The notes below the pieces were generated by a model, which saw nothing but the letters and a program-made list of their open reading frames with translations, was not told the origin of the DNA and searched no databases. Below, piece after piece: positions 2,359-9,034 of a stretch of DNA of 64,000 bases. The DNA is from Methanocaldococcus vulcanius M7. GTDB taxonomy: Archaea > AGJL01 > Methanococci > Methanococcales > Methanocaldococcaceae. Both the position numbers and the translations under genes were made by a program. Position 1 is the stretch's first letter; every line of letters begins with the position of its first letter. The DNA lies in the NCBI RefSeq assembly GCF_000024625.1, contig NC_013407.1, positions 310,001 through 374,000 on the forward strand, written 5' to 3'.

Positions 2359-2424
2359 GGCTCCGCCTCTATACTGAGGCATCATCGCCAGTTGGCTCAG
2401 CTCCTACACCGGAGCGTCATCGCC
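2359..2424 (-). ncRNA. Tandem kink-turn hairpin leader, copy 1
   Basis: A GC-rich island in AT-rich DNA, 40 nt upstream of the precursor peptide 1 start. On the minus strand it forms two 31-nt hairpins (2424-2394 and 2389-2359) joined by AACT. Each reads GGC, GAT, GA, stem, 6-nt loop, stem, GA, GCC, which is the Kt-7 kink-turn layout: C-stem, 3-nt bulge, tandem G.A pairs, second stem. The second stems differ compensatorily (GCTCC/GGAGC and GCCTC/GAGGC) while the loops share RGTRTA. This supports a structured RNA in the peptide mRNA leader, possibly bound by L7Ae. The regulatory role is inference. Confidence 0.7.
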
Positions 2425-2625: not shown

Positions 2626-2800
2626 TTATTTTAATTTTTTAATTAGATCTTCTTTTGAAATGTTATTCCATTTAGATATGTCATTTAAAATAGCATTTAA
2701 GGTTCCTTTTGCGATTTCTTTAATGATAAGGTATAGCTATATTGTAAATCCTAAATTCTGTTTCTTTTTTTAATCTTACATGACTTCCTCTTTGTCTAAC
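2626..2800 (-). pseudogene. hicA: HicA toxin remnant fused to a SpoIIM fragment
   Basis: Reading the minus strand from 2800 gives VRQRGSHVRLKKETEF, then IAIPYH, a frameshift, KEIAKGTLNAILNDISKW and a C-terminal EDLIKKLK. This is the HicA mRNA-interferase signature: GSHxRL with the catalytic His, IPxH, and GTLxxIL. The 5' third of hicA is missing and replaced by the start of a SpoIIM gene, and there is a one-base frameshift after IPYH, so the copy is dead. A second decayed hicA lies at 9466-9700. Confidence 0.75.
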
Positions 2801-3007
2801 TAAACCAAAGGTTATCGCTCCAGCTAACATTAAAAAAATAACTTTTAAGTTGTTTGTTAGGATTATAGGAAAGTTGAATTGTATTTTAGGTTTAAAATTA
2901 GATAAATCTTTATCGTTAATCTTTGATAAATTGTTTATTGAAATAAACCCCACAATAAAACCTAATGAGAAGATTATTAGAGTTAAGATTATTGGTAGTT
3001 TGTTCAT
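2801..3007 (-). pseudogene. SpoIIM/DUF95 5' fragment (module 2)
   Basis: The first 69 codons match the SpoIIM gene at 1101-1637 (MNKLPIILTLIIFSLGF at the start, LKVIFLMLAGAITFGL at the end). The frame then runs directly into HicA sequence at 2800, so the last two thirds, including the PHGIFE motif, are missing. The start context GTGAAACCATGAA is conserved. It begins 5 nt after the stop of the four-helix membrane gene 3012-3422 and so occupies the third position of the second peptide / membrane protein / SpoIIM module. Confidence 0.85.
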
Positions 3008-3011
3008 GGTT

Positions 3012-3422
3012 TCACAGTGCTAAGATTATTAAAACTTTTATAAACAATTCTGCTATGTCTATTAAAGATATTAATAATAATATAATTGCAGCGTATTTGG
3101 TAGTTTTATTTAATTTCTCAGACTGGTATTTAATATATAATATTACTCCAAGCCCAAAAAATATTGTTGAGATAAACACGTGGGACAATGTTTTTAGACC
3201 GATATTTCCTATAACATAATAACCAAATATACTCAGCAATGCATAAACTCCACAAATAACAAATATGGTTGCAGATTTTTTAAGGTTAATACCAATTTTA
3301 TGTTTTAATAATACGATAAATGATAAACTAACAATAAACATTGCCCATAAGTTTAATATTACACGCCAATTATTTAAAAAATAAAGAATAATAGATTTAA
3401 CATTTACCATCCTATCACTCAT
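3012..3422 (-). CDS. Four-helix membrane protein, immunity-like, paralogue of 10874-11242
   Basis: A 136-residue protein with four predicted membrane helices, opening with an amphipathic ILYFLNNWRVILNLWAMF stretch. It aligns along its length with the protein at 10874-11242 (LLDNWREILYLWTM; ICGGYMLLSV against ICGVYALLSI; STIFFGLGVIL against STIFLGLGIIL), so the two are a family. An in-frame ATG at 3410 is an alternative start. It follows precursor peptide 2 by 6 nt and precedes a SpoIIM fragment, the position of the unrelated small membrane protein in module 1. Immunity to the neighbouring peptide is the simplest guess from context. Confidence 0.65.
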   Translation of the reverse strand: MSDRMVNVKSIILYFLNNWRVILNLWAMFIVSLSFIVLLKHKIGINLKKSATIFVICGVYALLSIFGYYVIGNIGLKTLSHVFISTIFFGLGVILYIKYQSEKLNKTTKYAAIILLLISLIDIAELFIKVLIILAL

Positions 3423-3428
3423 TAAATA

Positions 3429-3731
3429 TTAACAAATCAATGTAACACCTACAGCTATAAGTCCTGCTCCAGTAAGACCAGCTGCAGCCCATAATGCCAC
3501 TTCTGCTGCTCCTTCAACACTTTCAACTTCAGATACAGTTAAAAGAAGTTCTGCTCCACAGTCGCCCCATTCACGCCCATCCTCAAGGTACCCCTTATCA
3601 TCATGATATTTGTAGTAGTATGCTGCTCCTAAATCCCCTACAGCAACTGACTCAGCAACTAACGCTCCTATCATGCTTACTAAAACAACTGCCCCAAAAA
3701 TCTTATATACTCCCTTTTCTAAAAATTTCAT
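3429..3731 (-). CDS. Short Gly/Ala-rich precursor peptide 2 (bacteriocin-like)
   Basis: A 100-residue paralogue of the peptide at 2005-2319. The start is the ATG at 3731 with GGTGG upstream; an in-frame GTG at 3740 lies inside the SD. Residues 1-36 are nearly the same leader (KFLEKGVYKIF, then VLVSMIGALVAESVAVGD). The remainder diverges: a charged, Tyr-rich part (AYYYKYHDDKGYLEDG), then a hydrophobic Ala/Gly-rich end GLTGAGLIAVGVTLIC with a C-terminal Cys. A constant leader with variable cores is typical of ribosomally made, exported peptides. The activity and any cyclisation are unproven. Confidence 0.7.
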   Translation of the reverse strand: MKFLEKGVYKIFGAVVLVSMIGALVAESVAVGDLGAAYYYKYHDDKGYLEDGREWGDCGAELLLTVSEVESVEGAAEVALWAAAGLTGAGLIAVGVTLIC

Positions 3732-3769
3732 ATTGCCCACCTTTTAGTTGGTTGGCAATTCCCGAATTT

Positions 3770-3835
3770 GGCTCCGCCTCTATACTGAGGCATCATCGCC
3801 AGTTGGCTCAGCTCCTACACCGGAGCGTCATCGCC
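3770..3835 (-). ncRNA. Tandem kink-turn hairpin leader, copy 2
   Basis: A second copy of the structured leader, upstream of precursor peptide 2. The two 31-nt hairpins lie at 3835-3805 and 3800-3770 and have the same sequence as in copy 1, including the GGC-GAT-GA and GA-GCC kink-turn elements and the RGTRTA loops. The flank differs by small indels near 3745-3770, so the hairpins are at least as well kept as their surroundings. Confidence 0.7.
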
Positions 3836-3929: not shown

Positions 3930-4019
3930 ATTACGATTTAATTCAGATCGTAAAATATTTATACGGAAATAAATGCCCTATTAGAAACTTTAATAAATAT
4001 AAAAAAGTAAAGTAGTTTA
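3930..4019 (-). repeat. 90-bp promoter repeat R, copy 2
   Basis: Same as copy 1 at 2517-2606, with a TATA-like element near 3963-3954 and the ACGAT/ATCGT palindrome at 3951-3933 on the minus strand. It lies between the end of the ATPase gene (4029) and the leader of precursor peptide 2, and is the likely promoter of module 2. Confidence 0.7.
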
Positions 4020-4028
4020 AAACTTTGT

Positions 4029-5126
4029 TTATAACAACCTTTTTATAGCATTCCAAACCAAAAATGATTGTGGTTTTAAAATTCCTTTTTGTGGATTTAA
4101 GAATAAAATATTCTCTTTAATTAAAAATATCCTAATTTTCCTTTTTATCTTACTTTTTGGAAGTTCATAGTTGTCTTTAAACAATTTCAATGCCTCTAAG
4201 ACATCATCATAATTTATTCCCTCATAACCTTCTTCAATCTTCTCTAATAACTCTTCCAAGTGATTCCGCTCCTCTTCAAGTTTTGTCTCTAAGATGTATT
4301 TCAAATCTTTAACAGCTTTTAACTTGACAATAACATCATAAATATCCTTTGCCTTTCCACCAACATAAGAATAAATCAACTCCTTATCATCATTAGTTAG
4401 ATTAATATTTTTTTCTTTAGCTAAAAAATCCATAAACTTTAAAGCTGTCTCTTTATCAAAATCATCAACTAAAATATAATCAACTCTTCCTTTTAATTCA
4501 GCTTTTCCGTATATGTATTCAATAAACAAACTATCAGAACTTAGACAAAAGACATGACATAGATGTTGAACTTTGGTTAATGCCACTAAGAACTGGAACA
4601 AACTCCATAATAACAACCTATTCCCGTTTAAAGTTATCTCTTTAATCATTTGCAATTCATCAAATATTAAAATTGGTTTTTTACCCTTCTCATTTAATTT
4701 AGCAAATAAATATTCTATATATTGATAGACATCTGCTGATTTATCTCTTTTACTAAAAATTTTATCAAAGAATGGTTTTGGCACTTTAATAGGCATGCCC
4801 AAGTAGTATTTACTAATCTCTTCAGAACCTCTAACTAATAAATCAGCTAATGATTTAGCATACTCTCTAAAATCATCTATTTTTGATTTCTCATCCACTT
4901 CAAATAAACATTCAATAAAATTATCAACGTTTAAAATATTCCTCGTTCTAAAATCAATAAAGAATGTAATGTATTTGGACTTATCTAACCTATTAGTTAT
5001 AACTTCTCTTATTAGGGTTGATTTCCCACTATTTAAAGGACCATAAATAAAATAAATATTATTTGGTTCTTCTTCTAAGATTAAAAGAATCTCATTAATC
5101 TCCTTTTCTCTATTAAAAAATTTCAT
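4029..5126 (-). CDS. Archaeal P-loop ATPase (PF01637-like), copy A
   Basis: A 365-residue ATPase. Walker A is GPLNSGKST at residues 29-37 and Walker B is ILIFDELQM near 153-161; a sensor-like FCLSSDS follows near 195, and a C-terminal winged-helix-like region ends in [17 protein letters not shown]. This is the multi-copy archaeal ATPase family, abundant in M. jannaschii, whose function is unknown. Copy B at 7710-8819 is a clear paralogue; both begin [14 protein letters not shown] and end almost identically. It is flanked by repeat R on the 3' side and a 215-bp identical block on the 5' side. Confidence 0.85.
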
Positions 5127-5341
5127 AATTACACCTTTTTTAGTAGTTATTAAGATCCTTAGATTCTTTTCATTTAAATCTTACGTTATTGAAGGAAAGT
5201 TAAAATTTATTTTAGGTTTAAAATTTGATGAATCCTTATCATTAATTTTCGAGAAGTTGTTTATTGATATTAAGCCAAAAATAAAACCTAATGAGAAGAT
5301 TGTTATTGTTAAAATTATTGGTAGTTTATTCATGGTTTCAC
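5127..5341 (-). repeat. 215-bp repeat upstream of ATPase A
   Basis: By eye, base for base the same as 8820-9034. It contains the ATPase SD region (AAAAAAGGTGTAATT on the minus strand) and an internally deleted SpoIIM gene. Identity stops within a few bases of the ATG context at the right end, while on the left it continues into the first codons of the ATPases. Confidence 0.85.
5181..5333 (-). pseudogene. Internally deleted SpoIIM (50 codons), copy A
   Basis: The frame starts at the conserved GTGAAACCATGAA and gives about 47 SpoIIM N-terminal residues (MNKLPIILTITIFSLGF through NFKPKINFNFPSI). It then joins the very last codon and stop of SpoIIM (ACG TAA) plus the 3' flank GATTTAAAT seen after the complete gene at 1101. 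The middle, including PHGIFE, is gone. It may still be translated as a 50-residue single-helix peptide. It follows the BaxI-like gene at 5355. Confidence 0.8.
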
Positions 5342-7610: not shown

Positions 7611-7700
7611 ATTACGATTTAATTCAGATCGTAAAATATTTATACGGAAATAAATGCCCTATTAGAAACTTTAATAAATATAAAAAAGTAAAGTAGTTTA
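7611..7700 (-). repeat. 90-bp promoter repeat R, copy 3
   Basis: Same 90 bp as R1 and R2, with the TATA-like element and the ACGAT/ATCGT palindrome. It sits 10 nt from the end of ATPase copy B, exactly as R2 sits by ATPase copy A; the shared junction extends into the last codons of both ATPases. It probably drives 7550 to 5355. Confidence 0.7.
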
Positions 7701-7709
7701 AAACTTTGT

Positions 7710-8819
7710 TTATAACAACCTTTTTATAGCATTCCAAACCAGATAACTTTGTGGTTTTAAAATTCCCCTAATAGGATCTAAAAATAAGATGTTCTCTTTA
7801 ATTAAATAGATATAAACTGGTTCTGGTATTTTATCATCACTTATCTCATAAGTATTTTTAAATAATTTTAACGCTTCAATAATATCCTCTTTTTTAATTT
7901 CGATAAGTTCATCTTTAATACTAACTTTTGGTTTTATATAATCCAAGTCATTTAAAAAATACTTTAGCTTTTGCATGTCATCTTTAAGCATTAATTCTAA
8001 CACATCTTTCAAATCCATAATACCTAACTTATTTATAACCCTAACAATAAGTTTTGGCTTTCCACCCACATAAGAGTATATTAATTCCTTATCTTCATTA
8101 TTTAGCTCAATATTATTATCTACTGCTAAAAAATCCATAAATTTTAAGGCAGTTTGTTTATCAAAATCATCTACCAAAATATAATCAGCCCTATCCCTTA
8201 ACTCTCCAGCATTATAAACATACTCAATGAATAAACTATCTGAACTTAGACAAAAAACATGAGCTATATGTCTTTCTTTTGTTAAAGAGACCAAAAATTG
8301 GAATAAGCTTTTTAATAATGGCTTTCCTCCATTCATAACAATATCTTTAATCATCTGCAATTCATCTAAAATAAATACTGGCTGAATGCCCTTTTTATGC
8401 AAACTCATAAATAAGTCCCTAATAAACTTAAAAACTAACCTTCCTCTTTCTTTCTCCCCAAATAATTTATCTAAAATTGGCTCTGGAACTTTTATGCCAT
8501 AATATAAGTTTATAATATCATTAACTCCCGTTGTAAAACTCTCTATGTATGATTTTATCTTCTTTTCTTTTGAATTTTCATCTATTTCAAACAATGCCTC
8601 GACGAAATTATCCATTGATGAAATATCATACTCTCTGAAATTAACATAAAAGACAGCATATTTTTTACTGCATTTTTTTAATTCATTGTTTATTATGTGG
8701 TTTATTAAAGTTGTTTTTCCACTGTTTAAGGGTCCATATATAAAATAAATATCATCTGGCTCTCTATTTAAAATTCGAAGTATTTCATTAATCTCCTTTT
8801 CCCTATTAAAAAATTTCAT
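7710..8819 (-). CDS. Archaeal P-loop ATPase (PF01637-like), copy B
   Basis: A 369-residue paralogue of 4029-5126. Walker [10 protein letters not shown] is at residues 29-37 and Walker [10 protein letters not shown] near 155. The [15 protein letters not shown] and [19 protein letters not shown] blocks are shared with copy A, as is the C-terminal [15 protein letters not shown]. The middle and the region before the C-terminus differ, so the copies are not recent duplicates although their flanks are identical. Confidence 0.85.
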
Positions 8820-9034
8820 AATTACACCTTTTTTAGTAGTTATTAAGATCCTTAGATTCTTTTCATTTAAATCTTACGTTATTGAAGGAAAGTTAAAATT
8901 TATTTTAGGTTTAAAATTTGATGAATCCTTATCATTAATTTTCGAGAAGTTGTTTATTGATATTAAGCCAAAAATAAAACCTAATGAGAAGATTGTTATT
9001 GTTAAAATTATTGGTAGTTTATTCATGGTTTCAC
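8820..9034 (-). repeat. 215-bp repeat upstream of ATPase B
   Basis: Second copy of the block at 5127-5341, without any difference that I can see. It carries the ATPase SD and the internally deleted SpoIIM. Confidence 0.85.
8874..9026 (-). pseudogene. Internally deleted SpoIIM (50 codons), copy B
   Basis: The same sequence as 5181-5333: SpoIIM residues 1-47 joined to the final Thr codon and stop. It starts 20 nt after the stop of the membrane gene at 9047. Two matching copies imply recent duplication or gene conversion. Confidence 0.8.

Follow-up and report, generated by a model that had tools for sequence, protein, structure and literature searches.

Binding of L7Ae to kink-turns (k-turns) in mRNA leaders, with an effect on translation, has been published for the l7ae gene itself (PMC5539422, PMC6298567). 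These l7ae leaders are unfolded until L7Ae binds, whereupon the Shine-Dalgarno sequence (SD) is hidden (Daume 2017, PMC5539422; Huang 2019, PMC6298567). G1b and G2n of the k-turn are the bases specifically contacted by L7Ae, and every k-turn analysed in the latter work folds on the protein (PMC6298567). In Pyrococcus abyssi, K-turns are located near ORF starts in the sRkB/sRkC leader and repeat RNAs, for which L7Ae binding has been shown (PMC3124441). RIP-seq in Sulfolobus has raised the suspicion that L7Ae controls genes beyond its own; a search of the open-access literature returned no description of a conserved L7Ae regulon. Separately, the arCOG01996/DUF95 loci of Methanococcales have been described as variable, membrane-associated "dark matter" systems, in passages that deal with the proteins and not with a leader RNA (Makarova 2014, PMC4158269).

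The window (the whole stretch of DNA analysed, 64,000 nucleotides at C1:310001-374000 of the 1,761,737-base genome of Methanocaldococcus vulcanius M7) carries on its minus strand two consecutive 31-nt hairpins (2424-2394 and 2389-2359), 5' of a secreted-peptide gene. Read 5' to 3', each consists of GGC, the bulge GAU, GA, a 5-bp stem closed by a 6-base loop, GA and GCC. This is the standard k-turn rule, so that the k-turns recognised by the first-pass annotation hold at both sites, and each hairpin folds as described there. Between its two GA elements the distal hairpin (2394-2424) reads C-GCUCC, GGUGUA and GGAGC-U, with 3b.3n being C.U, and the proximal hairpin (2359-2389) reads U-GCCUC, AGUAUA and GAGGC-G, with 3b.3n being U.G; the compensatory changes claimed for the upper stems amount to two base pairs. 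The 4-nt linker AACU (2390-2393) separates the hairpins, and the proximal one ends 40 nt 5' of the ATG at 2319, an interval that holds a predicted hairpin (2320-2349) pairing the SD region of the gene (GGUGG, 2328-2324). The window contains four occurrences of the pattern GGCGAUGA-N-GAGCC, compared with a mean of 0.01 in shuffled sequence, no shuffle reaching four, and the pattern GGCGATGA-N12-30-GAGCC occurs six times genome-wide.

The same arrangement precedes a second peptide gene on the same strand. Its distal (3805-3835) and proximal (3770-3800) hairpins are identical to 2394-2424 and 2359-2389, respectively, and are followed by a 38-nt segment (3732-3769) in which a hairpin is predicted to pair the SD region of this gene. 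Given that the two leaders are alike over 242 nt and differ only in two bases of a TA run, the second (3835-3770) is a recent duplication; it therefore adds no independent covariation, and the window alone offers one tandem with two compensatory pairs. The copy is real, and as further support it was over-read.

We built a covariance model (R1) from ten 31-mers and searched it across archaeal genomes. The model finds 66 hairpins, 28-36 nt in size, in 51 leaders from 15 of 36 Methanococcales genomes, all in the same orientation relative to the gene; across 297 archaeal genomes, its sole match outside the Methanococcales is a marginal one. The first-pass annotation had staked its reading on further homologues upstream of related peptides in this order, and the search bears it out decisively. 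Two of its details proved local to the window: the tandem arrangement is not essential, since 36 of the 51 leaders carry a single hairpin (the other 15 carry two), and the loop consensus RGTRTA dissolves beyond the nearest copies, where loops vary in sequence and length. Two weaker R1 matches that were checked, in two genomes, are the C/D-box sRNAs sR3 and sR39, which are known substrates of L7Ae. Exact-pattern matches in G002 and G031 (L009 and L022) have no peptide gene downstream and were discarded as chance.

Covariation across the family is strong. Over 43 distinct hairpins, in an alignment that was fitted to the model and whose sequences are related, 97.6% of paired cells are paired, compared with 78.0 (sd 1.7) after shuffling, and the covariation score is 0.477, compared with 0.157 (sd 0.018) for shuffled and 0.052-0.170 for slid controls. 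A script that counts positions from the core outward, independently of the fitted alignment, gives the same picture: stem positions N5-N8 are paired in 84-100% of cases versus roughly one half to four fifths in shuffled sequences, and each shows two to three Watson-Crick types. The compensatory stem changes span genera. It is this evidence from other genomes that substantiates a functional RNA. In Rfam, no family matches the hairpin at its gathering score (the best is sR49, with 15.9 bits versus a gathering score of 50), a scan of the window returns only tRNAs, and no report of this leader element was found in the open-access literature. As a k-turn leader element it belongs to a known kind, but it constitutes a new RNA family whose target regulon is new and whose anatomy differs.

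The hairpins are built as standard simple k-turns, with a 3-nt bulge and then G.A and A.G pairs between a C-helix and an NC-helix, both of which form. Among the 66, L3 U, 2b A and 1n A are invariant, 1b is G in 62 and 2n is G in 63. Of the bulges, 59 read GAU and 7 read UGU, 3b.3n is mostly U.G, U.U or C.U, and the C-helix GGC/GCC is nearly invariant, whereas loops and upper stems drift. The conserved positions coincide with the reported L7Ae contacts. In 44 of the 66, a C:G pair at -1b:-1n is combined with G at 3n or C at 3b, and the ion-folding rules predict that such hairpins fold with metal ions alone; for these, by the same rules, a protein-driven folding switch would not be required. In the tandem leaders L057:6287-6360 (minus strand) and L064:490-562 (plus strand), the centroid fold swaps strands of the identical C-helices between the two k-turns, a predicted exchange that makes a two-state device possible.

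The peptide genes were also sought independently of the RNA. In a search by protein alone (A4; accepted at about E 1e-3 or better), 48 peptide genes were found, 44 of which are preceded by a k-turn on the same strand at a distance of no more than 160 nt. The four without a full k-turn comprise two at contig ends, one of which retains the 3' part of a k-turn at the contig edge, one to which half a k-turn is fused, and one that stops early and lacks a leader. In the fused case (L085, G033:C1:119127-119306), a deletion joined half the k-turn to the signal-peptide coding region, and this element-less allele may serve as a natural mutant. Not every target is a standard peptide: some leaders precede degenerate or cut peptides, a 602-aa secreted protein or a secreted protein with WxLIP/fn3-like matches, and three precede a DUF4855-like protein with no evident signal peptide. 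The element therefore marks a regulon wider than the peptides. The l7ae gene is not downstream of any element and is located elsewhere; the targets comprise secreted peptides plus a small number of other genes.

In most leaders, a TATA-like run lies roughly 60-130 nt 5' of the first hairpin, so that the k-turn should be transcribed. An inverted repeat, TTACGATCTGAATTAAATCGTAA, adjoins the TATA-like run of both window genes (2518-2540 for gene 1, next to the run at about 2506-2518, and 3931-3953 for gene 2; both minus strand). It is a candidate operator or promoter element and a candidate transcription-factor site; control at the level of transcription is therefore likely too. Copies of this promoter at 7635 and 10805 of the window and at 7530 of L054 (all minus strand) have other genes downstream and no k-turn, and are a natural control for the contribution of the k-turn. 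Conversely, the k-turn is also present with a second promoter class and with several unrelated-looking gene types. Taken together, the RNA element goes with the gene and not with the promoter. Members of the second class are L007, L065, L063, L069, L071, L073 and L078, several with a palindrome such as ACTTTACAAAGGTAAAGT shortly 5' of the hairpin. A candidate upstream ORF between the transcript start and the k-turn (MKNVEN...KNSWR-stop) was rejected, as in several leaders it would begin with ACG, ATA or GTG, and its frames break.

Downstream, the k-turn is usually about 25-45 nt from the start codon. In most leaders, a short predicted stem in this interval pairs the SD (CCACC/GGUGG, UCACC/GGUGA, UCACU/AGUGA, CUCC/GGAG or AUUGCC/GGCAAU) and is weaker than the k-turn hairpin. 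Predicted SD pairing is higher in the leaders than in 184 control ORFs (0.69 versus 0.54 at 37 C and 0.41 versus 0.17 at 80 C), a comparison of related leaders with mechanically chosen controls whose p-values are not to be taken at face value.

The genes served by these leaders form cassettes in which genes for a small hydrophobic protein and a SpoIIM/DUF95 protein usually come after the k-turn leader and the peptide; up to about six copies of the module are present, and several arrays end with a Yip1-domain protein. In the window (all minus strand), cassette 1 encodes a secreted peptide of 104 aa with the constant signal MKFLEKGVYKVFAGLVLVSMIGALVA and a hypervariable mature part (2005-2319), a small hydrophobic protein of 92 aa that may be an immunity protein (1661-1939) and a SpoIIM/DUF95 membrane protein (1101-1637; PF01944, E 1.9e-33); a Yip1-domain membrane protein (390-1052) closes the array. 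Cassette 2 encodes a peptide of 100 aa (3429-3731), a small hydrophobic protein of 136 aa (3012-3422) and a truncated SpoIIM (2720-3007; PF01944, below cut-off). Judging from their DUF95/SpoIIM genes, these cassettes are probably the same locus type as the arCOG01996/DUF95 systems, and they have probably been exchanged between species. Further truncated SpoIIM genes lie at 5181-5333, 8874-9026 and about 10069; two of the truncated genes are directly upstream of MJ1010-like ATPase genes (4029-5126 and 7710-8819), and these sites are decayed cassettes that may have taken up ATPase insertions. In L062, the peptide ORF after 2164-2191 has an in-frame TGA inside the conserved frame, either a nonsense mutation or, less likely, selenocysteine.

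Across the family, the peptides combine a near-constant signal sequence with a hypervariable, Gly/Ala-rich mature part. A small hydrophobic Gly/Ala-rich precursor with a DUF95/SpoIIM partner is an architecture of the circular-bacteriocin type, and DUF95 proteins also occur with circular bacteriocins. No Pfam or NCBIfam match connects the peptides to known circular bacteriocins, a search for viral relatives found none, and an AlphaFold model (mean pLDDT 47.8) was too poor for a fold search. The term bacteriocin-like is therefore derived from the architecture, and the peptides are putative toxins.

Considering the conserved k-turn structure, the strict linkage to the peptide genes and the predicted SD pairing, all shown here, the leader k-turn probably controls the yield of peptide per message. 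The element could well be a cis-acting one, in which the k-turn docks L7Ae or a protein of its family, modulates the SD hairpin and thereby controls translation of the peptide. One or two small standard k-turns stand in the leader, followed by the weak hairpin predicted to hold the SD. The free k-turn would dock L7Ae or another member of its family, docking would alter the ease with which the adjacent ribosome-binding hairpin opens, and translation would be gated accordingly. By analogy only, repression when free L7Ae is plentiful appears likelier than activation. Output of a membrane-active peptide would thereby be tied to the supply of a core ribosome and sRNP protein. A broader version is advanced tentatively: acting in trans, L7Ae might be the translational regulator of the whole regulon of hypervariable, bacteriocin-like peptides, sensing free ribosomal/sRNP protein, with the interchangeable C-helices of tandem k-turns serving as a two-site switch. 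The 51 natural leaders from 15 genomes offer a direct test of whether a core ribosomal protein is a trans-acting translational regulator in archaea. Among them is the leader at G004:C1:715446-715476 of M. jannaschii, a species from which L7Ae has been purified and characterised in earlier work. The element is also a handle on the uncharacterised secreted peptides of methanogen "dark matter" islands.

Compared with the l7ae leaders, the peptide leaders share the position in the 5' leader, the GAU bulge, the tandem G.A/A.G pairs, the nearby start codon and L7Ae as the expected ligand. They differ in that the k-turn neither overlaps nor masks the SD, which lies in a separate hairpin, and in that the targets are other genes. 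Moreover, by the published sequence rules the l7ae k-turn is not ion-foldable, whereas in the peptide leaders -1 is C:G and 3n is mostly G, and most are predicted to prefold. They also form one conserved family across an order, with single or tandem copies. Because 44 of 66 hairpins are predicted to be ion-foldable and the SD lies outside the k-turn, the element is better regarded as a preformed docking site beside the SD hairpin than as an l7ae-type switch. The L7Ae-binding control element proposed by the first-pass annotation thus survives as the best reading, in keeping with the L7Ae contacts among the conserved bases and with the C/D sRNAs among the weaker matches. Box C/D sRNAs (sR3, sR39 and others) also have an L7Ae-type k-turn, and second hairpins with UGUGAUGA..CUGA carry canonical box C/D letters; the leader elements, in contrast, are single hairpins in an mRNA leader, without a guide region or a C'/D' pair. 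The sRkB/sRkC RNAs are much longer (about 210 nt), belong to other genes and have no sequence family in common with the peptide-leader element.

The ion-folding prediction also suits a leader that is purely structural, in which a constitutively folded k-turn gives the mRNA 5' end its shape, protects it (from exonucleases, for instance) or keeps the ribosome-binding hairpin insulated, and L7Ae either binds passively or does not bind. Both ion-folding rules hold for two thirds of the hairpins, and the G+C-rich hairpins fold well alone within A+T-rich leaders. However, a mere stem has no need of L3 U, the G.A/A.G pairs and three C-helix pairs, which are kept while the remaining stem and the loop drift, and L7Ae should encounter any k-turn that is free in an archaeal cell; we regard this explanation as rather unlikely. 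Docking of L7Ae is to be weighed against a different reader as well, such as an L30e paralogue or a protein encoded by the cassette, which would make the cassette autoregulatory. The M. vulcanius M7 genome has two L7Ae/L30e-family genes, and the element goes with the cassette and is absent where the peptide family is absent; yet none of the cassette proteins examined has an RNA-binding domain and L7Ae binds k-turns generically, which makes another reader unlikely.

An action at the level of DNA, as an operator or recombination site, or mere hitch-hiking in duplicated cassettes, is suggested by the recent duplication in the window and by the repetition and probable exchange of cassettes. It is difficult to reconcile with compensatory changes across genera, the retention of non-Watson-Crick G.A pairs, the single orientation and the promoter copies that precede other genes without a k-turn, and is improbable. 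The riboswitch that the first-pass annotation had offered as an alternative, or any other ligand sensor, would fit the tandem copies in 15 of 51 leaders, reminiscent of tandem aptamers, and a second hairpin that holds the SD. Only the k-turn core and C-helix are constant, though, and loops vary in sequence and length, so that the 31 nt offer no visible ligand pocket; Rfam has no matching family either, and this proposal is disfavoured as very improbable. The AUGA..GA core and k-turn-like geometry are shared with eukaryotic and euryarchaeal SECIS elements, the core resembling the eukaryotic one; selenocysteine is used in Methanococcales, where some SECIS elements contain [A/G]UGA_[G/A]A (PMC11227280). 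The peptide-leader element nevertheless differs in its 5' leader position and in missing the euryarchaeal GAA/A bulge, and there is no UGA to recode: the peptide genes are open frames with no in-frame UGA, a TGA being present inside only the L062 gene and one already degenerate match among the 48 search hits. A SECIS function is accordingly hardly credible.

With respect to the L7Ae family itself, the leaders of L089 and L090, which are the l7ae gene and the L30e-type gene of one genome, both have CCCTCC 5' of a GGAGG SD. The l7ae leader of this pair reads CCAC-GAUGACAA-stem-GA-GUGG, which is k-turn-like with three extra bases.
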